Below, piece after piece: positions 9,769 through 21,950 of a DNA stretch of 64,000 nt. The notes below the pieces were generated by a model, which saw only the letters and a list, made by a program, of their open reading frames with translations, was not told the origin of the DNA and ran no database searches. The DNA is taken from contig NZ_NBDP01000019.1 in assembly GCF_004123845.1 (NCBI RefSeq), positions 372,001 through 436,000 of the forward strand. The letters are read 5' to 3'. A program made the translations under genes and the position numbers. Numbering within the stretch: the first letter of the stretch is position 1; every line of letters begins with the position of its first letter. This DNA is from Allobosea sp. Tri-44 (GTDB lineage Bacteria; Pseudomonadota; Alphaproteobacteria; Rhizobiales; Beijerinckiaceae).

Positions 9769-12507
9769 TTGGAGAGAAGCCTCTTCCGTTACGTCTGGCA
9801 GAAGAGCCGCCGGGAACAGATCATCGTTCTGCTGGTGATCCTCGTCTCGATCCCGTTCAACTGGTTGTCCTTCGATGTGCCCAAGCGCATCGTCAACGAC
9901 GCGATCCAGGGCGGCGCCTTCAAGGACGGCAAGACGACGGCGACGGTGTTCGACTGGGCGCTTCACCTGCCGGAATTCCTCGGTGGCGGCAGCTTCCAGA
10001 TCTCCGAAGGCTTCAAGGTCGGCCAGCTCGGCTTGCTGCTGACGCTGAGCTTTTATTTCCTTGTGCTCGTCCTGATCAACGGCGGCTTCAAATACATCGT
10101 CAACCTGCAAAAGGGCGTGCTCGGCGAGCGCATGCTCAGGCGCATGCGCTACGACCTGTTCAGCCAGTTGATGCGCTTTCGGCCGGAGGATATCCGCGCG
10201 GTCAAGCCGGCCGAAGCCGCGAGCATGATCAAGGACGAGGTCGAGCCGATCGGCAGCTTCGTCGGCGATGCCTTCATCCAGCCGGCCTTCCTGCTCAGCC
10301 AGGCTTTGACTGCGCTCGCCTTCATCATGATGCAGAGCGTCTGGCTCGGCTCGATCGCGCTGGTCATCGTGCTGATGCAGGCGGTGATCATCCCGATCCT
10401 GCGCAAGGAACAGCTCCGCCTCGGCCGCGAGCGCCAGATCGTCTCGCGCCAGCTCGCGGGGCGGATCGGCGAGATCGTCGATGCCGGACCGACCATTCAG
10501 GGAAATGGCGCAACCTCCTATATCCAGTCGGACATCGCCGGGCGTCTGGGGACGCTGTTCGACATCCGCTATGCGCTCTACAAGCGCAAATTCGCCGTCA
10601 AGTTCCTGAATAACTTGCTGGCGCAGGTCACACCCTTCTTTTTCTATGCGATTGGCGGCTTCTTCGCCCTGCAGGGCAGGCTCGATATCGGCCAGCTGGT
10701 CGCGGTGATCGCGGCCTATCGCGACCTGCCTCCGCCGATCAAGGAGCTGATCGACTGGGAGCAGCAGCGCAACGACGTCACCATCAAATACGAGCAGGTG
10801 ATCGCGCAGTTCAGCCCGACCGAGGTGGTCACGCTGGAGGAAAAGGGCGAGATCGCGCGGCTGCCGTCCCGCGGCGAGATCCGGCTCGACAAGGTCGAGA
10901 TGGTCGACAATCGCGGTCAGCCGCTCCTGGCGCCGTTGAGCCTGACCCTGCACCGGCCCGGGGCGGTAGCGCTGATCGGGGGCGCCGGCGGCGGCCGCGA
11001 CACGCTCGGGCGCATCCTCGGCCGGCAGACCATGAGCTATGCCGGCCGCGTCATGATCGACAAGGAGCCGCTCTCCGCGATCAGCGTCGAACGCGCGAGC
11101 CACTTCATCGGCTATGCCGGCGCCGAGGTCGAAATTATCAACGGCTCCCTGCGTGACAACATCCTGCTGCCGCTGAAGCGCAGGCGCCCGGTCGTGAAGC
11201 TGGACGAGGTCGTCGATCAGGAGGAGCATCGCCGCTTCATCGAGTCGCTGCGCGCGGGGAACACGCCGCTGTCCTTCGCCGCGGACTGGAACGACTATGA
11301 CGGCGCCGGTCTCGACGGAGAGGAGGCGCTCGAGCAGCGTCTCCTGTCGATCCTCGACACGCTCGGCTGCGCGGATGAGATCTACGAGCTCGGTCTCGAT
11401 GCGAAGGTGATCGCCCCGCTCCCGGAAGGCGCGGCCGAGCGCATCATCGAAGCGCGCGAGGTGGTGGCGGCCGAACTGACCAAGACCAAGCTCGCCGGGC
11501 TGATCGAAACCTTCGATCTCGAGCGCTACAACGCCAATGCGACGATCGCGGAGAACCTCGTCTTCGGCGCCATGCGCAATGGCCGTCAGCCGGCCGAATT
11601 CCTGCTCGAAGACGCTTACGCCCGCTCGGTGCTGCAAGCGGAGGCGCTGGAAGAGCCGCTGGCCGAGATCGGCGGACGCATCGCTTCGACACTAGTCGAG
11701 ATCTTCGCCGGCCTGCCGCAGGGCCATGTCCTGTTCGAGCGCTATGCCTTCGGCGGTGAGGTCGATCTGGAGAAGCTCGGCGAACTGGCCGAGGCCCTGC
11801 GTCGGCACGATCGCCGCAGCCCGCTCGACCCGACGGTGCAGCGCGAACTGGTCGCGCTCGCGCTCGGCTATGTCGAGCCAAAGCACCGGCTCAACCTGCT
11901 CGACATCGCCCTGCGGCGGCGCGTGCTGCGCGCCCGGCACAGCTTCAAGACCTATCTGCCCGGCGAGAAGGCCGACGAGATCGAATTCTACGATCCGGCT
12001 GACGTGATCCATGGCGCAAGCGTGCGCGACAACCTGCTGTTCGGGCGCATCGGCTTCGGCGTTCCCGATGCCGGGCGCAAGGTGGCGGAGATCGCCCGGG
12101 CGGCGCTGTCACGCGCCGGGCTCGACTCGGCGGCTTATCGCCTCGGGCTCAACACCGATGTCGGCCTGCGCGGCCGGCTGCTGCCGCTGCGCCTGCGCCT
12201 GATGGTGCCGTTGGCCCAGGCGCTGATCAAACAGCCGGACATCCTGGTGCTCGATCTCGACGCCTTTGCCATCACCTGCGCTGATCCTCGCGGCCTGATC
12301 CGCCGGATCGGCAGCTATTGCGAGGACAAGACTGTGTTCCTGCTCTTGACCGACCAGGGGTTGGCTGCCGATATCCCTGAGAAGATCGTATTTAACGGAG
12401 CTGTGGCCCGGGTGAGTAACAAGGGCGGAGCCGTCGACGAGGCGGACGAACTGCAGGACGAGATCCTGCCCCCCAACGGGGCGGTTCCGATCGAGGCAAG
12501 GACATGA
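9769..12507 (+). CDS. ABC exporter-like membrane protein with degenerate nucleotide-binding motifs
   Basis: This 912-residue protein has a TTG start. An exporter-type membrane domain spans about residues 1-330, with helices near 20-38, 85-105, 165-205 and 280-320. The rest resembles an ABC ATPase but is altered. The Walker A position (404-412) reads GGAGGGRDT, with arginine for the essential lysine. Walker B at 825-831 is ILVLDLD, with leucine where the catalytic glutamate should be. No LSGGQ signature is visible. The post-Q-loop element recurs three times (NGSLRDNI ~459, ATIAENLVFG 591-600, ASVRDNLLFG 750-759), so the ATPase region is expanded. The next gene overlaps its stop (ATGA). It may be a nucleotide-independent or regulated transporter, or a scaffold. 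Confidence 0.8.
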   Translation: MERSLFRYVWQKSRREQIIVLLVILVSIPFNWLSFDVPKRIVNDAIQGGAFKDGKTTATVFDWALHLPEFLGGGSFQISEGFKVGQLGLLLTLSFYFLVLVLINGGFKYIVNLQKGVLGERMLRRMRYDLFSQLMRFRPEDIRAVKPAEAASMIKDEVEPIGSFVGDAFIQPAFLLSQALTALAFIMMQSVWLGSIALVIVLMQAVIIPILRKEQLRLGRERQIVSRQLAGRIGEIVDAGPTIQGNGATSYIQSDIAGRLGTLFDIRYALYKRKFAVKFLNNLLAQVTPFFFYAIGGFFALQGRLDIGQLVAVIAAYRDLPPPIKELIDWEQQRNDVTIKYEQVIAQFSPTEVVTLEEKGEIARLPSRGEIRLDKVEMVDNRGQPLLAPLSLTLHRPGAVALIGGAGGGRDTLGRILGRQTMSYAGRVMIDKEPLSAISVERASHFIGYAGAEVEIINGSLRDNILLPLKRRRPVVKLDEVVDQEEHRRFIESLRAGNTPLSFAADWNDYDGAGLDGEEALEQRLLSILDTLGCADEIYELGLDAKVIAPLPEGAAERIIEAREVVAAELTKTKLAGLIETFDLERYNANATIAENLVFGAMRNGRQPAEFLLEDAYARSVLQAEALEEPLAEIGGRIASTLVEIFAGLPQGHVLFERYAFGGEVDLEKLGELAEALRRHDRRSPLDPTVQRELVALALGYVEPKHRLNLLDIALRRRVLRARHSFKTYLPGEKADEIEFYDPADVIHGASVRDNLLFGRIGFGVPDAGRKVAEIARAALSRAGLDSAAYRLGLNTDVGLRGRLLPLRLRLMVPLAQALIKQPDILVLDLDAFAITCADPRGLIRRIGSYCEDKTVFLLLTDQGLAADIPEKIVFNGAVARVSNKGGAVDEADELQDEILPPNGAVPIEART

Positions 12508-12953
12508 CACTCGAGAGCGATATCGGCTGCCTGAAATCGATCCCCCTGTTCCGCGGATTGCCGGGGCCACGGCTGAAGCTGCTCGCCCTGATGGGTGAAC
12601 GGCTCTATTTTCCGGCTGGGACGGTGATCACCGAGGAAGGTGCGAAGCCCGAGGAGGTCTACTGCATCCTGGAAGGGGAGGTCGAGCTCTCGCACGATTT
12701 CTCCGACGGACGGCAGAAGAGCTTCCGGCTCGCGACCGGCAGCATCATCGGCGATGTGCCGCTGCTCTGCAACCAGACCAATGCTGCGCGGTCTGCCGCC
12801 AAGACCGACGTGGTGGCGCTGCGGCTGCCGCGGGCGCTGTTCTTCGAGCTGCTCGACAATATTCCGGAATTCTCCGTCGCGCTGTCGCGCGATCTGGCCG
12901 GGCGGCTCTATCGGCTGGCGGATTCCGTCCTGCACGGCGAGAAGACACATTGA
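12504..12953 (+). CDS. stand-alone cyclic-nucleotide-binding domain protein
   Basis: The 149-residue protein is almost entirely one Crp-type beta-roll. GTVITEEG (39-46) and the phosphate-binding cassette near 79-100 are present: GSIIGDVPLL and the arginine R96 in ARSAA that would hold the cyclic phosphate. The usual glutamate of FGE is an aspartate here (D84). No helix-turn-helix follows, so it is not a DNA-binding regulator of the Crp class. Its position between the ABC-like protein and a cyclase-domain protein, with four bases overlapping the former, suggests that it passes a nucleotide signal to the transporter. Confidence 0.85.
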   Translation: MTLESDIGCLKSIPLFRGLPGPRLKLLALMGERLYFPAGTVITEEGAKPEEVYCILEGEVELSHDFSDGRQKSFRLATGSIIGDVPLLCNQTNAARSAAKTDVVALRLPRALFFELLDNIPEFSVALSRDLAGRLYRLADSVLHGEKTH

Positions 12954-12969: not shown

Positions 12970-14769
12970 ATGACAGCGGTTCCGAGCACGCCAACCGGGG
13001 GCAGGCCCGTCGCGTCTGGCTTCGACCAGATGTCGTCCTTGAGCCGCGACGTGCGCTTCGCCTCCGGCTGCATCCTGATGGTCTTCGCGACCACGCATTT
13101 CCTCAATCACGCGCTCGGCATTTTTGGCGTCGCGACGATGGAGGCGGTGCAGGACTGGCGCTACTGGTTCTGGCACAGCTGGATCGGCACGGTCGCGCTC
13201 TACGGGGCGCTCATCATCCACCCGATCTTCGCCCTGCTGCGCGTGGCGCAGCGGCGCACCTTTCGCATGCCGGCGCGCGAAGTAATCCAGATCATTCTCG
13301 GCGTCGCGATCCCGATCTTCCTGATCGACCATATCGTCGGCACCCGGGTGCAGGGCTCGTTATTCGGCCAGGACGAGAGCTACCATGCCGTCCTGCGCAG
13401 ACTCTGGCCTGGTCTCGCCCTGTCGCAGAGCCTGCTGCTGCTGCTGGTCTGGACGCATGGCGTGATCGGCCTGCATTTCACCTTCCGGGCGCGTGACGCC
13501 TATGTGCGCTGGCGCGATCCGTTCCTGCTGGTGGCGATCCTGGTGCCGCTGCTGGCCATCATCGGCTTCTCGGTGGCTGGACGGGAGGCGCAGATGATGG
13601 CGCTGCCGCCGGAGCTCTATACCGAGATCCAGATCGATACCTTCAACCGCTCGGTCACCTGGGCGAAGCGCGCCTTCTTCGGCCTGATTGGCGGGTTCGC
13701 CGGCTTCGTCGTGCTGCGCGAGCTTCGGGCGCGGGCGCTCGGTGCGATCGCGGTGCGCTTCATCGGGCATGGCGTGCGCCGTGTCGTTCCCGGCCCGACG
13801 CTGCTCGAGATCTTCCGTCGCTTCGGCATCCCACACGCCGCGCTCTGCGGCGGGCGGGCGCGCTGCGCCACCTGCCGCGTGCTGGTACTCGACGGTGCTG
13901 ATGATCTGCCGCCGCCCGGCCCGAACGAGGCGCGACTCCTGCGCCGGATTTCGGCCGGCGATCATGTCCGACTGGCCTGCCAGATCCGGCCGAAGCGCGA
14001 CCTCCAGGTCCAGATCCTGCTCGCCGCCAAGCAGCGCGGTGCCGGTCCCACCGGCGCTCTCGATTCCGATGATCGTATCGGCAAGAAGGGGCTGACGGTG
14101 ATGGTCGCGGATCTCAGAGCCTTCACTGCGCTCTCCGAGCGGCAATTGCCGCATGAGCTGATGAGCCTGCTCAACCGCTTCTATGACGAGATGTCGCAGG
14201 CGATCGCGGCGCATGGCGGGCGGATCGAGGCGATCTATGGCGACGGGCTGATGGCGGTGTTCGGGCTGGAGGCAACGCCGGCGCGCGCAGGTGCGGCGGC
14301 GATCGCGGCTGCCGGCGACATGGTCCGCGCCGTCGAGGCGCTCAATCGCGAATACGCCAACGCCCTGCCATTGCCGCTGCGCATCGGCATCGGCATCCAT
14401 GGCGGTCAAACGATTGTCGGAGCGGTCGAGAACGAAAGCATGGGGCGGCGCGAGATCACGGTCGGCGAAACGGTGATGATCGCGAGCCAACTCGAGGCGG
14501 CGACCCGGCGCCTTTTGTCCGACATCGTCGTCTCCGCCGAGACGGTGAGCGCGACAGGACGCAGCTACCGCGACACCGTCCCGCACAAGATCGCGGTCAA
14601 GGGGCGCGACAAGCCGATGCAGGTCTACGGCTTCGGCAGCACGCCGGCCGGCGAGCCCAGGCCGGACGGAGATCAGGACGCCAAGGCCACGCCGCAAAAA
14701 GCTGAAGGCGCGCTCCCAGTGGCGAAAGAGAAGACTCCGACAGCCACAGATGGGAGCAGCTCCGGCTAA
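12970..14769 (+). CDS. six-helix membrane protein with [2Fe-2S] ferredoxin and class III cyclase-like domains
   Basis: The start is the ATG at 12970 (599 residues). Six predicted helices in the first ~260 residues carry several histidines (TTHF, NHAL, WHSW, IHP, DHIV, THGVIGLH), recalling the haem-binding anchors of succinate dehydrogenase. A ferredoxin domain follows with C293-x5-C299-x2-C302 and C337. The C-terminal third is a class III nucleotidyl cyclase fold with both metal aspartates (D381, D425). However, the substrate lysine position is A421 and the transition-state Asn and Arg are M503 and Q507. It is therefore probably inactive or altered. The tail beyond ~555 is low complexity. A redox-sensing role is inferred from the cofactors. 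Confidence 0.85.
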   Translation: MTAVPSTPTGGRPVASGFDQMSSLSRDVRFASGCILMVFATTHFLNHALGIFGVATMEAVQDWRYWFWHSWIGTVALYGALIIHPIFALLRVAQRRTFRMPAREVIQIILGVAIPIFLIDHIVGTRVQGSLFGQDESYHAVLRRLWPGLALSQSLLLLLVWTHGVIGLHFTFRARDAYVRWRDPFLLVAILVPLLAIIGFSVAGREAQMMALPPELYTEIQIDTFNRSVTWAKRAFFGLIGGFAGFVVLRELRARALGAIAVRFIGHGVRRVVPGPTLLEIFRRFGIPHAALCGGRARCATCRVLVLDGADDLPPPGPNEARLLRRISAGDHVRLACQIRPKRDLQVQILLAAKQRGAGPTGALDSDDRIGKKGLTVMVADLRAFTALSERQLPHELMSLLNRFYDEMSQAIAAHGGRIEAIYGDGLMAVFGLEATPARAGAAAIAAAGDMVRAVEALNREYANALPLPLRIGIGIHGGQTIVGAVENESMGRREITVGETVMIASQLEAATRRLLSDIVVSAETVSATGRSYRDTVPHKIAVKGRDKPMQVYGFGSTPAGEPRPDGDQDAKATPQKAEGALPVAKEKTPTATDGSSSG

Positions 14770-14858: not shown

Positions 14859-15524
14859 ATGACCGACGAGATTTCCCGCGAGGCGCTGCACGACATCCTG
14901 CGCGGCGTCGCGGCGCTGACCGGCGATGCGATTGTCGCCGACCTCGCCCGGTTGGTCGGCAAGGGCGTCCGGGCCGACATCTCGATCGCCTTCAATCCCA
15001 AGCAGATCGCCTCCAAGCGCTGGCTGGTCGAGACACTTGCCGAGGTCCTGCCGAAGCCGGATCGGGCTGTCTGGGTGCTCGGCGCTTGGCATGGTGTGCT
15101 TGGCGCCATGCTCCTGGCCGATGACCGGCTGACGATTCCGCAGCTGGTCAGCCTCGACATCGACCCGGACTGCGCGCCGGTGGCGGAGATGTTGAACCAT
15201 CGCCATGTCGCGACCGGCCGCTTTCGGGCGGCGACGGCTGACATGCTGAGCCTCGACTTCGAGCGTGTCGAAGGCGGGCTTCCGGGGCTGGTGATCAACA
15301 CCAGCTGCGAGCATCTCGACGATGTGCCCGGCTGGATCGCCAGCCTTCCCGAGGGGTTGCCGCTGCTCCTGCAATCGAACGACTATTTCCGCGAGCCGGA
15401 CCATCGCAGCTGCGTGCCCTCGCTCGAGGCCTTCAGGGCGCAGGCCGAGCTGTCGGAGCTGTGGTTCGCTGGCGCGCTGCCGACGAAGAACTATACCCGT
15501 TTCATGCTGATCGGCCGCAGATGA
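14859..15524 (+). CDS. SAM-dependent methyltransferase-like protein
   Basis: This 221-residue Rossmann-type protein has VLGAWHG at 73-79 in the SAM glycine-loop position, SLDIDPDC at 98-105 as the acidic strand, and INTSCEH at 146-152. From memory, the same INTSCEH, QSNDYF and YTRFMLIG blocks occur in a poorly characterised class I methyltransferase group found in bacteria and phages, with distant likeness to nicotianamine synthase. The stop overlaps the next glycosyltransferase start (ATGA). It may methylate or aminopropylate a sugar or carrier in this pathway. The substrate is unknown. Confidence 0.65.
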   Translation: MTDEISREALHDILRGVAALTGDAIVADLARLVGKGVRADISIAFNPKQIASKRWLVETLAEVLPKPDRAVWVLGAWHGVLGAMLLADDRLTIPQLVSLDIDPDCAPVAEMLNHRHVATGRFRAATADMLSLDFERVEGGLPGLVINTSCEHLDDVPGWIASLPEGLPLLLQSNDYFREPDHRSCVPSLEAFRAQAELSELWFAGALPTKNYTRFMLIGRR

Positions 15525-16792
15525 GCACGGGTGAGCCCACCGGGCCGGCGGTTGCGATCGCGATGAAGGGCTATCCGCGCCTGTCGGAGACCTTCATCGC
15601 TCAGGAACTGCTCGGCCTGCAGCGGCTCGGCCTGTCCTTCGCGATCTGGTCGCTGCGCCATCCGACCGATGGTGCGCGGCACCTGATGCATCGCGAGATC
15701 ATCGCGCCGCTGCACTATCTGCCGGAATACCTGCATGACGACTGGCCGCGCGTCGTGCGCGGCATCGTCCGCGCTTTTGCGCGACCGAGTATTGCCCGCC
15801 TGCTCGGCGTCTTCCTGCGCGACCTCGCCCGCGACCGCACGCGCAACCGGCTGCGCCGCTTGGGCCAGGCCTGCGTGATGGCTCGTGAACTGCCGGCTGG
15901 AACCCGGCATCTCCATGTCCATTACCTGCACACGCCGGCTTCGGTGATCCGCTATGCGGCGCTGAGCCGGGGCCTAAGCTGGTCGTTCTCCGCCCATGCC
16001 AAGGACATCTGGACGACGCCCGACTGGGAGAAGCGCGAGAAGATCGGCGATGCGCGCTGGGGCGTGACCTGTACCCGCGACGGCCATGCCGAGCTCGCGC
16101 GTCTCGCCGACCGGCCGGATAAGGTCGCGCTACTCTATCACGGGCTCGACCTCTCGCGCTTCCCGGCGCCGCCCGAAGCCCGTCCATCGCACGATGGTTC
16201 TGATCCGGTCGACCCGGTATGCTTCCTCACCATCGGGCGGGCGGTGGCGAAGAAGGGTTTCGACGATCTGCTCGCGGCGCTGGCGATCTTGCCGGCGGAT
16301 CTGAACTGGCGGCTCGTCCATATCGGTGGCGGCGAGATGCTTGCGGCACTGAAGGCGCAGGCCGAGGCGCTTGGTATCGCGGCGCGGATCGAGTGGCGTG
16401 GGGCGCAGGCGCAGGACGCGGTGGTCGCCGCGCTACGCGAGGCCGATCTTTTTGTGCTGCCGTCAAAGCAGGCGGAGAATGGCGACCGCGACGGCTTGCC
16501 GAACGTGGTGATGGAGGCGGCGAGCCAGGCCCTGCCGATCGTCGCGACCGATTTCGCCGGCATCCCGGAATTCGTCCAGCATGGCCGCGAGGGGCTGCTG
16601 CTGCGGCCGGGCGATGTCTCGGCCTTGGCCAAGGCGCTGGAGGGGTTGAGCCGCGATCCGCAATGGCGCGGGAAGCTGGGAGCGGCGGCTTTCGCCCGGC
16701 TCGGGACCGAGTTCTCGACGCAGGCCGGTCTGGAGCGGGTCCACCGGGCATTGCTGGCGGCCGTCGCGGGCAGGGACGATGGCGCGCCATGA
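15521..16792 (+). CDS. GT4-family glycosyltransferase
   Basis: The start is the ATG at 15521, inside the stop of the methyltransferase-like gene, giving 423 residues. It begins with the family's KGYPRLSETFI motif, as in colanic-acid and exopolysaccharide transferases. Its C-terminal half has GRAVAKKGFDDLL, then a nucleotide-sugar site with an EX7E-like element (ENGDRDGLPNVVMEA). It is a cytoplasmic GT-B retaining-type enzyme. A four-base overlap joins it to the following glycosyltransferase. Part of the same putative glycan pathway; sugar specificity is not visible. Confidence 0.88.
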   Translation: MSTGEPTGPAVAIAMKGYPRLSETFIAQELLGLQRLGLSFAIWSLRHPTDGARHLMHREIIAPLHYLPEYLHDDWPRVVRGIVRAFARPSIARLLGVFLRDLARDRTRNRLRRLGQACVMARELPAGTRHLHVHYLHTPASVIRYAALSRGLSWSFSAHAKDIWTTPDWEKREKIGDARWGVTCTRDGHAELARLADRPDKVALLYHGLDLSRFPAPPEARPSHDGSDPVDPVCFLTIGRAVAKKGFDDLLAALAILPADLNWRLVHIGGGEMLAALKAQAEALGIAARIEWRGAQAQDAVVAALREADLFVLPSKQAENGDRDGLPNVVMEAASQALPIVATDFAGIPEFVQHGREGLLLRPGDVSALAKALEGLSRDPQWRGKLGAAAFARLGTEFSTQAGLERVHRALLAAVAGRDDGAP

Positions 16793-18036
16793 GCGCACGC
16801 ATCCTGATCGCGGTCACGCATCTGCTCGGCATCGGCCATCTCGTGCGGGCACGGCAGTTGGCACGGGCGCTGGCCGGGGCGGGACATGAGGTTACGCTCG
16901 CCAGCGGCGGCATGCCGGACGGCAAGGCGCCGACGGATTATCGCTTCGTGCAATTGCCGCCGGTGCGCACCGAAGGCACGGATTTCCGCAATCTGTTCGA
17001 CGAGCGCGGCCAGGCCGCAACGCCGGAGCGACTTGCCGCGCGGCGGAAACAACTCGCAGCTCTGGCGCAGGAGCTTTCGCCCGACATCGTCGTGACCGAG
17101 CATTTCCCCTTCGGCCGGCGCCAGCTTGCGGGCGAGTTCCTGGCGCTGCTCGAGGCGGCAAAGGTGGTCAATCCGCAAGCGCTCGTGCTGTCGTCGATCC
17201 GCGATGTGCTGGTCGCACCGCAGCGGCTGGACCGGCTCGCCGAGGTAGCCGAGCGGATCGCGACGCAGTTCGACGCGGTGCTCGTGCATGGCGATCCGCG
17301 CGTTCTGCCGCTCAAAGCCTCCTGGCCGATGACGCCGGAGATCGCCGGCAAGCTGGTCTATACCGGCTACCTGGCGGCATCAGCACACGGCCCTCATCCT
17401 GAGGAGCCGCGCAGCGGCGTCTCGAAGGATGCTCCAGTTGGTTTCGGAGCCTCCTGGAGCATCCTTCGAGACGCCATCTCTGACGAGATGGCTCCTCAGG
17501 ATGAGGGCTCAAAGGGGAAGGCTGGTACAATCCTCGTCTCCGGCGGGGGCTCGGCGGCAGCCTTGCCGCTGTTCGAGGCGGTGCTCGCGGCGGCGCGACT
17601 TCTGCCGGCACGACCCTTCCACCTCCTGGTCGGCCGCGGCGTCGCCGAGACCGATTTCGCCAGGCTGCGACAATCGGCTCCGGCCAATGCCGTCATCGAA
17701 CGGGCACGGCCGGATTTCCCGGCGCTGCTCGCCGGCTGCGCACTTTCTGTCAGCCAGGCAGGCTACAATACGGTGCTCGACCTGTTGCAGGCCGGGCGGC
17801 CGGCATTGTTTATCCCCTTCGATGCAGGCAACGAGACCGAGCAGGCCTTGCGTGCTGCGGCGCTGGAACGGGCTGGGCTGGCGCGCGTCGTGACCCTTGC
17901 CGAAGGTCCGCAGGCTTTGGCTGCTGCGATCGAAACGGCGCTGGCGCGAGGGGCTCCACCGGCCGCGAGGATCGATCTCGACGGCGCGGCGGGCACCGTC
18001 GCAGCGATAGCAAGACTGCTCGCAAGCCGCTCCTGA
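16789..18036 (+). CDS. MurG-like glycosyltransferase carrying an in-frame palindromic repeat
   Basis: The start is the ATG at 16789 (415 residues). The N-terminal loop [11 protein letters not shown] (about 13-23) and C-terminal [13 protein letters not shown] plus [13 protein letters not shown] match the GT28/MurG fold and the glycosyltransferase at 142-1422. Residues 202-240 are encoded by a 117-base palindromic repeat at 17,391-17,507. They fall between the two domains, just after the LVYTGYL strand, where a loop could tolerate an insert. Because 117 is a multiple of three, the frame is kept. The protein may still be functional. It is the last gene of the rightward cluster. Confidence 0.85.
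17391..17507. repeat. 117-base palindromic repeat inserted in a coding region
   Basis: Outer arms 17,391-17,407 and 17,491-17,507 are perfect reverse complements, as are inner arms 17,416-17,437 and 17,454-17,475 (22 bases each). The outer arm reads CCCTCATCCTGAGGAGC, which I recognise as a dispersed intergenic repeat of Rhizobiales. Here it lies wholly inside a glycosyltransferase gene and is translated through as 39 codons. Confidence 0.9.
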
Positions 18037-18049
18037 GCCGTGCGCGAAT

Positions 18050-18074
18050 GCATGCCGGCGAAGGGTCGGCATGC
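18050..18074 (+). terminator. possible terminator hairpin after the glycosyltransferase set
   Basis: GCATGCCG at 18,050-18,057 pairs perfectly with CGGCATGC at 18,067-18,074, 14 bases after the stop codon. The following bases (CTCTTG) give only a poor T-run, so the call is tentative. Confidence 0.4.
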
Positions 18075-18193
18075 CTCTTGCGAATTGCCGCTCCGCCGCT
18101 TTCGATCTAAGGAAGTTCCACACGCCTCCCTTTCGGTCGGCTCCAGGACACCGGATCTTCTGCCGGCCCCTGTCCTGCGCCCGGAGAAGAACG

Positions 18194-19183
18194 ATGACAA
18201 CGACGACTGCCTCCGCCCCCGGAATGCCGGACATGAAGTTGTCCGTGCGTCAGGTCTTCGGGATCGACAGCGATCTGGAGGTGCCGGCCTATTCCAAGCC
18301 CGAGGCGCATGTTCCCGACTTCGATTCGGATTACCGTTTCGACCGCGACACCACGATCGCGATCCTCGCCGGCTTCGCCCATAACCGCCGCGTGATGATC
18401 TCGGGCTATCACGGCACAGGCAAGTCGACCCATATCGAGCAGGTCGCGGCCCGGTTGAACTGGCCCTGCGTCCGCGTCAATCTCGACAGCCATGTCTCGC
18501 GGCTCGACCTCGTCGGCAAGGATGCGATCGTGCTGAAGGAGGGCAAGCAGATCACCGAGTTCCAGGACGGCATCCTGCCCTGGGCGCTGCAGAACAACAT
18601 CGCGCTCGTCTTCGACGAATACGATGCCGGCCGCCCGGACGTGATGTTCGTGATCCAGCGCGTGCTCGAGCAGTCGGGCAAGCTGACGCTGCTCGACCAG
18701 AAGCGCGTCATCCGCCCGCACCCCGCTTTCAGGCTCTTCGCCACCGCCAACACGGTTGGCCTCGGCGACACCTCGGGCCTCTATCACGGCACCCAGCAGA
18801 TCAACCAGGGCCAGATGGACCGCTGGTCGATCGTCACCACGCTGAACTACCTGCCTCACGACAACGAGGTCGCGATCGTGCTCGCCAAGTCGAAGCACTA
18901 TCAGGCCTCGCCGGAGGGCAAGGACATCGTCAACAAGATGGTCCGCGTCGCCGACCTGACCCGCAACGCCTTCATGAACGGCGATCTCTCGACCGTGATG
19001 AGCCCGCGTACCGTGATCACCTGGGCCGAGAACGCGGCGATCTTCGGCGACATCGGCTTCGCCTTCCGCGTCACCTTCCTCAACAAGTGCGACGAGATGG
19101 AGCGCACGCTGGTGGCGGAGTTCTTCCAGCGCTCCTTCGGCAAGGAGCTGCCGGAGAGCGCGGTCAACGTCGTTCTGAGCTGA
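18194..19183 (+). CDS. cobS: cobaltochelatase subunit CobS
   Basis: The 329-residue AAA+ ATPase of the aerobic CobNST cobaltochelatase helps insert Co2+ into hydrogenobyrinic acid a,c-diamide in vitamin B12 synthesis. Walker A is GYHGTGKST (71-79) and Walker B is ALVFDEYD near 140; the length matches the family. The start at 18,194 is supported by a GGAGAAG ribosome site at 18,183-18,189. Its partner cobT lies downstream, separated by two short genes on the same strand. The large subunit cobN is not in the window. Confidence 0.97.
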
Positions 19184-19188
19184 AGCAT

Positions 19189-19225
19189 GTTCCGCAAAAG
19201 TGGATCCCACTTTTGCGATCGGAAC
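19189..19225. repeat. palindromic repeat after cobS
   Basis: CGCAAAAGTGG at 19,193-19,203 pairs with CCACTTTTGCG at 19,207-19,217, flanked by GTTCC and GGAAC. It starts five bases after the cobS stop. It resembles the short dispersed Rhizobiales repeats and may lower read-through into the next gene. Confidence 0.6.
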
Positions 19226-19251
19226 GCGCTCAACTAATTGGGAGACCGGCC

Positions 19252-19602
19252 ATGGCGCAGTACGAAGGGTCCTGTCATTGCGGACGGGTCGCCTATGAGG
19301 TCGAGGCCGACCTTGCCAAGACGATCACCTGCAACTGCTCCTATTGCCAGCGCCGCGGCTCGGTGCTGGCCTTCGCCCCAGCGACGAACTTCACCCTGAC
19401 CAAGGGCGAGGATGCGCTGACCGAGTACCGCTTCAACTCGCAGAAAATCCAACATCTGTTCTGCGAGGCCTGCGGTATCGAATCCTTTGCCCGCGCCAAC
19501 GCGCCGGACGGCACGCCGACCATCGCGATCAACGTGCGTTGCCTTGCCGGCGTCGAGCCGACCGAGCTCACGTCGATCCAATATGACGGACGGGCGCGCT
19601 GA
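19252..19602 (+). CDS. GFA (glutathione-dependent formaldehyde-activating)-family protein
   Basis: The 116-residue protein has the zinc-binding cysteine pattern of the GFA/CENP-V fold: CHCG near residue 9, CNCSYC near 29-34 and a third pair, CEACG, near 75. Family members bind zinc and some bind glutathione adducts, but few have proven reactions. The start ATG follows an AATTGGGAGACC ribosome site. It lies between cobS and the GNAT gene on the same strand, an odd place for it, and nothing links it to cobalamin synthesis. Confidence 0.88.
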   Translation: MAQYEGSCHCGRVAYEVEADLAKTITCNCSYCQRRGSVLAFAPATNFTLTKGEDALTEYRFNSQKIQHLFCEACGIESFARANAPDGTPTIAINVRCLAGVEPTELTSIQYDGRAR

Positions 19603-19614
19603 GGGAGCCCGCCG

Positions 19615-20055
19615 GTGAGCATCGCCGCCGAGAGCAAGCGAGCCACGATCCAGCGCGAAGCGGATTTTGCCGCGACGCGTGAGGTCGTCCTGCGCGGTCT
19701 TGCCGCGCATAACGAGTCCAGGGTCGGGCCGCGGAATGCGCAGCCATTGGCGTTGAGCTTGCGCGATGAGAGCGGCGCCATGGTCGGCGGTCTCGTCGGC
19801 GAGCTCAAATGGCAGTGGCTCTATGTCGATCTGTTCTGGATCGACGAGGGCCATCGCGGCGCCGGCCATGGCGAGGCGCTGCTGGCAATGGCCGAGCAGG
19901 CGGCGCGCGACTACGGCGCACGCGGCGTCTATCTCGGCACGATGAGCATCCAGGCGCCGGGCTTCTATCCCCGCATGGGCTATCGCGAATGCGGTCGCAT
20001 GGACGACTATCCGGTCGCCGGCCAGACGTTCCATCATTTCATGAAGGCGCTATGA
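19615..20055 (+). CDS. GNAT-family N-acetyltransferase
   Basis: The 146-residue GTG-started protein has a strong GAGGGAG site 8-14 bases upstream. The GNAT core is clear: the beta4 strand LYVDLFWID, then the acetyl-CoA loop [11 protein letters not shown] and a C-terminal [10 protein letters not shown] strand. It should acetylate an amino group of a small molecule or protein; the substrate is unknown. Its stop overlaps the cobT start (ATGA), so it is made together with CobT. Confidence 0.85.
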
Positions 20056-21950
20056 GCATCTCCAACCGCAAGCCCGGAACCCCGAAGGAAGCGCCGGCCG
20101 AGCCGCTGAAGCGGGCGGTTTCGGGCGCGATGAAGGCGATCGCGCGCAAGCCGGAGATGGAGATCGTCTTCGCCGCCGACAAACCTTCGCTGGTCGGCGA
20201 GCGCGCCCGCCTGCCGGAGCCGCCGCGCAAACTCACGGCTGGCGATATCGCGATCCTGCGTGGCCATGCCGATTCGATGGCGCTGCGCCTCGCCTGCCAT
20301 GATGCTGCGGTCCACCGCCGGGCCGCGCCCGAAGGCGATGCGGCCCGGGCGGTGTTCGACGCGGTCGAGCAGTCACGGGTCGAATGCGTCGGTTCTCGTC
20401 GGATGAGCGGCATGGCCGGCAATATCTCGGCGATGCTGGAGGACCGCTATCATCGCGGCGGCCGCTATGAGGAGATCACTGACCGGGCCGATGCGCCGCT
20501 CGAGGATGCGCTCGCCCTGATGGTGCGCGAGCGCCTGACCGGCCTGAAACCGCCGAAGGCTGCCGAGAAGCTGGTCGAACTCTGGCGCGAGCAGATCGAG
20601 GCCAAGGCCGGTGGCGATCTCGACCGGCTGGCCAAGGCGATCGAGGACCAGCGTGCCTTCGCCCGTACCGTGCGCGACATGCTGGTCTCGCTCGATATGG
20701 CCGAGCAGAGCAGTCAGGGCGACGAGTCCGATGAGGATGAGGACGACCAGGACCAGTCCTCCGAGGAGCAGCAGCAGGAAGAAGGCGAAGCCGAGCAGCA
20801 GAGCCAGGGCGAGCGCTCCGAGACCGAGACCAGCGAGGACGCTGCCGAGGAGCTGCAGGAGGGCGCCTCCGAGGCTGCCGACGCGCCGGCCGGGGACTGG
20901 GACGAGGAAGACGAGAACTCCGAGGCCGAGGAGGCCGGCGAGGCGCCGCGTCCGCGCGACAGCCGCGCCAACGACCGGCCGCAGACCGACTACAAGCCTT
21001 ACACCCAGAAGTTCGACGAGATCGTCACGGCGGAAGAGCTCTGCGACGCCGAGGAGCTGACGCGCCTGCGCGCCTATCTCGACAAGCAATTGGCGCATCT
21101 GCAGGGCGTCGTCGCCCGGCTGGCGAACCGCCTGCAACGCCGGCTGATGGCGCAGCAGAACCGCTCCTGGCAGTTCGATCTGGAGGAGGGTGCTCTCGAT
21201 CCCTCGCGCCTGCCGCGCATCATCATCGACCCGTTCCAGCCGCTCTCCTTCAGGCAGGAATCGGACACGAATTTCCGCGACACGGTGGTGACGCTGCTGA
21301 TCGACAATTCCGGCTCGATGCGCGGCCGGCCGATCACGGTCGCGGCGACCTGCGCCGACATCCTGGCGCGGACGCTGGAGCGCTGCGGCGTCAAGGTCGA
21401 GCTGCTCGGCTTCACCACCCGCGCCTGGAAGGGCGGGCTGTCGCGCGAGAGCTGGCTGCAATCGGGCAAGCCGGCCAATCCCGGCCGCCTCAACGATCTC
21501 CGGCACATCATCTACAAGGCGGCAGATGCCCCGTGGCGGCGGGCGCGCAAGAATCTCGGCCTGATGATGCGCGAGGGGCTGCTCAAGGAGAACATCGACG
21601 GCGAGGCGCTCGACTGGGCGCATAAGCGCCTGCTCGGCCGGCCGGAGCAGCGCAAGATCCTGATGGTGATCTCGGACGGCGCGCCGGTCGACGATTCAAC
21701 GCTCTCGGTCAATGCCGGCAGCTATCTCGAGCGGCATCTGCGCCACATCATCGCCGAGATCGAGACGCGCTCGCCGGTCGAACTGATCGCGATCGGCATC
21801 GGCCACGACGTCACGCGCTATTATCGCCGCGCCGTCACCATCGTCGATGCCGAGGAGCTCGGCGGCGTGATGACCGAGAAGCTGGCGGAGCTGTTCGAGG
21901 AGGACGCTGCCGCCGGATCGGGCTCGCGAGGCTCGCGCCGCCTGCAATGA
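20052..21950 (+). CDS. cobT: cobaltochelatase subunit CobT
   Basis: The 632-residue partner of CobS starts at 20,052. It has the typical layout: an N-terminal helical domain, a long acidic Glu/Asp/Gln-rich linker (about 215-325), and a C-terminal von Willebrand A domain. The metal-ion site is D418-N-S420-G-S422 and a later SDGAP loop completes it. CobT and CobS form a two-ring ATPase that drives cobalt insertion by CobN. Translation is coupled to the GNAT gene before it and the phytase-like gene after it (ATGA at both ends). Confidence 0.97.

Follow-up and report, generated by a model that had tools for sequence, protein, structure and literature searches.

Organization of the locus

The window analysed here, a stretch of 64,000 nucleotides from Allobosea sp. 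Tri-44, carries three closely packed genes on its forward (+) strand, to which all coordinates below refer. The first (9769–12507) encodes an exporter-like ABC protein of 912 residues (PF00664, partial PF00005) with degenerate Walker A, signature and Walker B motifs, the second (12504–12953) a stand-alone cyclic-nucleotide-binding (CNB) protein (PF00027) and the third (12970–14769) a 599-residue protein combining a membrane anchor, a ferredoxin domain and a class III cyclase domain, which we regard as a probable pseudo-cyclase. The ABC gene runs 4 bases into the CNB gene, and 16 bases separate the stop codon of the CNB gene from the start of the cyclase-like gene. A preliminary description of this DNA dealt with the third gene; the operon brings in the neighbouring ABC and CNB genes and, for the Bosea group, a CNB protein that has lost an arginine.

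The anchor, ferredoxin and class III cyclase fold assigned in that description are confirmed by Pfam matches and alignment. The membrane anchor (residues 25–255; 13042–13734) is defined by conservation, by the modelled helices and by a weak match of residues 104–176 to the SdhC b558 cytochrome family of NCBIfam (E = 2e-5, under the family cut-off). Its four histidines, H43, H84, H121 and H163, occur in all 11 non-redundant members of the clade defined below, in 99–100% of 82 canonical relatives and in all 49 other copies from the same genus, and by homology to CyaC (see below) they are the likely ligands of two b haems. The [2Fe-2S] ferredoxin domain (residues 272–349; 13783–14016) is recognized by both Pfam and NCBIfam (PF00111 at residues 272–342, E = 1.4e-7), and its cysteine quartet (C293, C299, C302 and C337) is kept in each of 125 related sequences. 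The class III cyclase domain (residues 372–555; 14083–14634) matches PF00211 at residues 375–550 (E = 7.3e-16), and alignments show that it lacks substrate and transition-state residues. A structure model of the whole chain had a mean pLDDT of 55.6, the anchor being usable and the soluble parts mostly unusable; a fold search with this model returned class III cyclases with low TM-scores.

The cyclase active site

The Lys and the Asp/Thr of class III cyclases read the base, a role that agrees with the CyaC mutants considered below. Active-site columns were set by aligning the window protein with 60 homologous sequences and the solved cyclases 2w01, 6fht, 3r5g and 1wc0. The preliminary description had held that both metal aspartates remain while the Lys, Asn and Arg are replaced, and had proposed an alignment with ferredoxin-containing cyclases as a check; the losses stand in that alignment, which adds a fourth. 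D381 (codon 14110–14112) and D425 (14242–14244), the first and second metal aspartates, are retained. A421 (14230–14232), M503 (14476–14478) and Q507 (14488–14490) fall on the Lys/Glu, Asn and Arg columns of the four solved cyclases and so replace the substrate Lys, the ribose-binding Asn and the transition-state Arg. The additional loss is that of the substrate Thr, replaced by I496 (14455–14457) in a column that holds Thr in 81 of 82 canonical relatives and Ser in the remaining one. Among the residue pairs expected of an active cyclase, the metal aspartates are thus present and the Lys with Asp/Thr and Asn with Arg pairs absent. In class III enzymes the metal aspartates come from one chain, and its partner brings the ribose Asn together with the phosphate Arg and Lys (PMC9223806, covered in part); one side of the composite site is kept here and the other is lost.

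The same division runs through the 22 sequences of the clade. D381, R383, F385 and D425 are invariant (22/22); Lys421 and Asn503 are found in none, Thr496 in one and Arg507 in six, the last figure counting against the mechanism inferred below. The lost positions have since drifted, Lys being replaced by A, S, I, M, N, Q or T and Asn by M, T, A, S or V, and a Lys/Arg near position 544 has also gone in part of the clade. Such drift beside an unchanged metal side is the strongest indication that this side remains important. Arg471, considered as a counterpart of Arg484 in mammalian C1, is invariant in the clade but lies two residues out of register and was rejected.

Mutants of the adenylate cyclase CyaC from Sinorhizobium meliloti bear directly on these losses. 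According to the portions of PMC10463352 covered here, the double mutants K410A/T484A and N491A/R495A were designed to abolish activity and both were silent in a reporter strain in vivo, the N491A/R495A result being given as data not shown. Matched by motif order rather than by sequence alignment, K410/T484 correspond to A421/I496 and N491/R495 to M503/Q507 of the window protein. Given the loss of Lys, Thr, Asn and Arg together with these mutant data, cAMP synthesis at a useful rate is not expected, and the cyclase domain is very probably that of a pseudo-cyclase, as the preliminary description had suggested; the purifying selection described below also supports that suggestion.

Loss of Lys421 by itself proved unsuitable as a diagnostic of inactivity, since 18 of 84 free-standing ferredoxin cyclases replace this Lys and retain Asn and Arg. 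In these proteins (L106, L108, L110–L114, L116–L118, L180, L181, L183, L185, L186, L188, L099 and L178) the Lys has become Q, S, N, G or T, and a changed substrate is possible. In a lone ferredoxin cyclase outside the clade (L168:6439–8241) the first metal Asp has become Asn, while Arg and Glu stand at the Asn and Arg positions, respectively; it is a separate degenerate case.

Distribution and selection

Relatives were sought in 99 genomes of the family and 397 of the order, and 120 stretches were taken from the best matches together with ten added loci, mostly from Bosea and 70–97% identical to the window; the relatives therefore represent the best-matching part of a sample from one order. 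These stretches contain 125 open reading frames with anchor, ferredoxin and cyclase. A CNB gene lies within 2.5 kb upstream on the same strand in 41 of the 125, and an ABC gene, complete or truncated at a contig edge, is seen in 40 of these 41, the stretch of L064 being too short. Asn503 and Lys421 are lost and both metal aspartates kept in 23 of the 41 CNB-linked sequences (a count that includes two genomes twice, as L071/L084 and L072/L083), and the other 18 keep the Lys, Asn and Arg. Loss of the Asn with retention of both aspartates was found in none of the 84 sequences outside this arrangement: 82 keep Asn and Arg (18 of them with the Lys replaced), L168 is degenerate and L169 could not be scored. 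Once near-copies are removed, the Asn is lost in 13 of 31 operon sequences and in 1 of 83 others; the Asn-lost sequences are related and form one clade, so this association amounts to one event and not thirteen. A tandem pair of canonical ferredoxin cyclase genes was seen at L143:6341–10021.

The clade was recovered without recourse to the cyclase domain itself. In a tree of anchor and ferredoxin, built by a quick method from 124 sequences, the 22 sequences form one group (support 84), and with the ABC protein added (40 operon sequences) support for the clade is 100/98. Its sister is the canonical operon L094, which is a long branch. Members of the clade come from seven genera in four families.

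In five Bosea pairs the cyclase domain has dN/dS values of 0.010, 0.045, 0.094, 0.104 and 0.101, set against 0.124–0.255 for the anchor and 0.012–0.093 for the ferredoxin part; the C-terminal tail gives 0.31–0.45 in the three pairs for which it could be computed. The cyclase domain is under strong purifying selection. A match at E = 1e-30 or better is present in 54 of 61 genomes of the genus. In 49 of 49 copies besides that of the window (48 scored and the cyclase residues of L311 assigned by eye, with G530, G535, G511 and G521, the last only 41% identical, left out) both aspartates, the four histidines and the four cysteines are kept and the Lys, Asn and Arg are absent, so the losses in the window protein are not a sequencing error. 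The ABC and CNB genes are also present at all 49 of these loci.

The CNB and ABC proteins

The Glu and Arg of the CNB phosphate-binding cassette are the residues that we take to serve the phosphate site for cAMP. In the window protein motif comparison places Asp at the Glu position and Asn at that of the Arg. All 18 canonical operons carry the Arg, and 16 of them the Glu, the other two having Asp. In the Bosea group all 50 CNB proteins have Asp instead of the Glu and one of Y, F, N, T and A instead of the Arg. Among the 11 remaining clade members the Arg is retained by all but L066 (Y) and the Glu by all but L070 (V), so cAMP binding may persist there. Degeneration of the CNB site throughout the clade had seemed indicated by a search for the motif R[ST]A, which occurs in 0 of 22, but was rejected on the column count; in the CNB proteins of the clade outside Bosea it is the residues following the Arg that differ from the canonical Ser/Thr-Ala. 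Judged by these residues, loss of the CNB site accompanies the predicted pseudo-cyclase in the Bosea group and L066 and is not clade-wide. An R-S-A placed three residues downstream in the window CNB protein was considered as a shifted site; the length of this stretch, which aligns without gaps, argues against it. The protein resembles the CNB domains of CRP/Fnr regulators in its PF00027 fold match, but differs from those regulators in having no DNA-binding domain within its 149 residues and, in the Bosea group, in the replacement of the cassette Glu and Arg.

The ABC protein shares with exporters such as MsbA and CydCD the exporter membrane domain and part of the ATPase domain, but departs from them in its degenerate Walker A and B motifs and in a long insertion in the ATPase domain. 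The Walker A Lys is present in only 2 of 39 scorable operon sequences (L088 and L094), without the following Ser/Thr, and the Walker B Glu in 0 of 41. Twenty ABC loci from elsewhere, picked from matches in 60 of 150 genomes of the order, have the Walker A Lys in 0 of 20 and the Walker B Glu in 3 of 20, and a search of the same loci for GxxxxGK[ST] and LSGG[QER] found neither motif in any of the 20. These motifs suggest that the ABC protein of the window does not hydrolyse ATP; the Walker B Glu in three relatives outside the operon means that the family may not be inert everywhere. By eye, the long insertion contains further ENLxFG-like stretches, as though the domain had been repeated in part. 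A structure model of this protein was unusable (score 37.5).

A CNB gene adjoins the ABC gene in 18 of these 20 loci and the two form one chain in the remaining loci, L218 and L219, so the constant unit is ABC plus CNB and the cyclase is the variable part. The R[ST]A motif is present in the CNB portion of 19 of the 20 (17 by pattern, L218 and L219 by eye) and is lacking in L232. The two fusions (L218:4994–8080 and L219:5572–8874) lie near class III cyclases of other architecture.

Surrounding genes

Downstream of the operon proper lie genes for a GT4-type glycosyltransferase (15461–16792) and a GT28-type glycosyltransferase (16789–18036, start approximate), both with linkage to ABC–CNB in many genomes. 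Genes related to them occur at 47 of 60 ABC-bearing loci and at 1 of 90 others, or, with a single Bosea locus kept, at 36 of 49 and 1 of 90; in L067 and L068 the GT4 gene is 8–9 kb off. A small gene at 14859–15524, conserved beside the operon in ten loci that are mostly from Bosea, has no Pfam or NCBIfam match, and its product is methyltransferase-like by eye. The glycosyltransferase genes are followed by cobS- and cobT-type cobaltochelatase genes at 18071–21950.

Several loci encode anchor–ferredoxin proteins with no cyclase match (L120–L124, L062:1–849 and L063:1–1330). That of L124 stands beside GT4/GT28 genes; those of L062 and L063 are near the operon of the predicted pseudo-cyclase and may be truncated where the stretch ends. 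A hidden cyclase was considered for the gap of 1.6–2.2 kb between the CNB and cyclase genes in L061–L063 and rejected, the gap being occupied, by eye, by an aminotransferase-like reading frame in L062 and L063 and a regulator-like one in L061.

Functional implications

CyaC provides the closest functional comparison. In the portions of PMC10463352 covered here, it is described as carrying two b haems in a six-helix domain and a [2Fe-2S] cluster, with an activity that tracks the redox state of quinone. The window protein has the same order of anchor, ferredoxin and class III cyclase and the conserved histidines and cysteines, and just as CyaC contacts a CRP-like CNB protein, the window gene sits beside a CNB gene. 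The differences are that CyaC is active with Lys410, Thr484, Asn491 and Arg495 in place and that the gene upstream of it encodes a TetR regulator, whereas the predicted pseudo-cyclase follows ABC–CNB. PMC4821796 describes a wider set of 30 class IIIb cyclases, each containing a ferredoxin and four histidines at precise spacings, and predicts two haems for them. Its cluster typified by Rhodopseudomonas palustris Q132R4 shares the six-helix anchor, the four spaced histidines, the ferredoxin and the cyclase with the window protein; these proteins are called adenylate cyclases, and the portions of that paper covered make no mention of missing catalytic residues. The suggestion in the preliminary description that a haem- or quinone-linked anchor would make this protein a redox sensor gains support by homology, from the four invariant histidines and from the two haems found in CyaC or predicted in the family.

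Two further observations on CyaC bear on how a cyclase-like protein might signal without its product. Both double mutants still contacted CycR and the CRP-like protein Clr in two-hybrid assays, N491A/R495A again as data not shown, and in vitro the binding of CyaC to Clr was ATP-dependent and was lost or weakened in K410A/T484A (PMC10463352, in the portions covered). In the mechanism that we infer, the anchor, with its two predicted b haems, and the ferredoxin cluster would respond to the redox poise of the quinone pool or of a related couple, as in CyaC. The cyclase domain would keep its metal side (D381, D425 and the DLR-F loop) and have no useful cAMP output; instead, redox changes, perhaps with Mg-NTP also required, would alter its shape or contacts, and the small CNB protein would receive this signal directly and relay it to the exporter-like ABC protein encoded in the operon, the likely target being the production or export of a glycan. 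That a CyaC-type redox sensor signals by contact to CNB and ABC proteins, perhaps controlling glycan production, is a reading to which we give slightly less than even chances, lowered from even because most CNB proteins of the clade outside Bosea keep both Arg and Glu. Moreover, as the contact between CyaC and Clr needs ATP and is weakened in K410A/T484A, a protein that lacks this pocket may have a weaker hold on its CNB partner.

Retention of the metal half alone resembles the C1 half of mammalian cyclases, in which the metal aspartates are present and the Asn, Arg and Lys of the partner half are absent (PMC9223806, covered in part), and a C2-like partner is the obvious rival. The window protein would then lend its metal aspartates to a site for which another class III chain supplies the Lys, Thr, Asn and Arg, and cAMP would be made only in the mixed dimer. 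The invariance of the metal side in 22 of 22 clade members beside a variable partner side fits such an arrangement, and in Rv1625c-type chimaeras co-expressed metal-site and Arg mutants are described, in the source as covered, as restoring each other. The genome of the window has two more class III domains, one with K, N and R and one with H, N and R, so the cell may both make cAMP and supply a partner. A second class III gene also stands between the CNB and ferredoxin cyclase genes in four loci, the ferredoxin cyclase being canonical in each; these genes (L077:10398–12077, L078:10111–11565, L092:8252–9745 and L093:8188–9624) encode a membrane class III cyclase with the Asn kept and, in the sequences inspected, Lys for Arg. 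However, mammalian C1 has its C2 partner in the same chain, and in 18 of the 61 genomes of the genus no partner is visible, the single PF00211 match (E up to 0.001) being the cyclase-like gene itself; a catalytic class III partner was rejected as a general answer on this count. In one such genome, G011, a profile made from nine domain sequences gave no second match better than E = 0.58, a search that would miss a very divergent partner. A half-site role of this kind is quite unlikely. Among other cyclase types, class I was found in none of three Bosea genomes searched, and each of the three has one CYTH domain, which we would guess to be a triphosphatase.

The metal side could also be read as a sensor in its own right, in which a metal–triphosphate half-site binds Mg-NTP with weak choice of base, and the nucleotide, not redox alone, sets the state of the protein. 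Such a sensor would account for the invariance of D381, R383, F385 and D425 amid the loss of the base and ribose residues, and for the ATP dependence of the CyaC–Clr contact in vitro (PMC10463352, in part). Since the grip on the triphosphate is itself largely gone (the Arg and, in some clade members, the Lys/Arg near 544), we consider it unlikely, while recognizing that it overlaps with the contact relay. The alternative in the preliminary description of a pseudo-cyclase that only binds a nucleotide may also hold, the metal side being invariant in the clade. Persisting catalysis, either weak or with another substrate or product, is highly improbable. Its appeal lies in the intact metal site and in the 18 of 84 free-standing relatives that bear Asn and Arg with the Lys replaced and may be active with another specificity, yet the window protein has lost the Asn and Arg as well, and CyaC N491A/R495A was silent in vivo, although as data not shown (PMC10463352, in part). 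The cyclase with a different product entertained in the preliminary description is not supported, because the Asn and Arg act on the ribose and phosphates and not on the choice of base. The loss of several catalytic residues might also mark a decaying relic of a cyclase gene, an explanation with scarcely any credibility in view of domain dN/dS values of no more than 0.104 in five pairs, an intact frame and the conservation of aspartates, histidines and cysteines throughout the genus.

Within Bosea the contact relay can be taken further. There, a cAMP pathway may have given way to a relay without a messenger, in which a dead redox cyclase, a cAMP-blind CNB protein and a non-hydrolysing ABC protein would form a standing membrane complex linking respiratory redox to surface glycan. 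This extension, which would cover species such as G011 in which neither a class I cyclase nor another class III domain was detected, is offered as a tentative proposal, more probably wrong than right; the confinement of the CNB loss to the Bosea group and L066 counted marginally against it.

Pseudoenzymes are, to our knowledge, well studied among kinases and little studied among nucleotide cyclases. Inactive class III homologues exist in mycobacteria; in the openly licensed literature we found nothing on a bacterial pseudo-cyclase or on an ABC–CNB–cyclase gene set. In the present clade the metal half of the cyclase site is fixed and the other free, next to an ABC protein with a degenerate ATPase, and in one genus the predicted pseudo-cyclase also adjoins a CNB protein without its phosphate-site Arg. 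This offers a case, open to direct test, in which contact signalling may have replaced a second-messenger pathway, and raises the question of what role a cyclase domain that makes no cAMP would have. As the predicted pseudo-cyclase is the sole class III match in those 18 genomes, a class III match in Bosea need not mean that cAMP is made.
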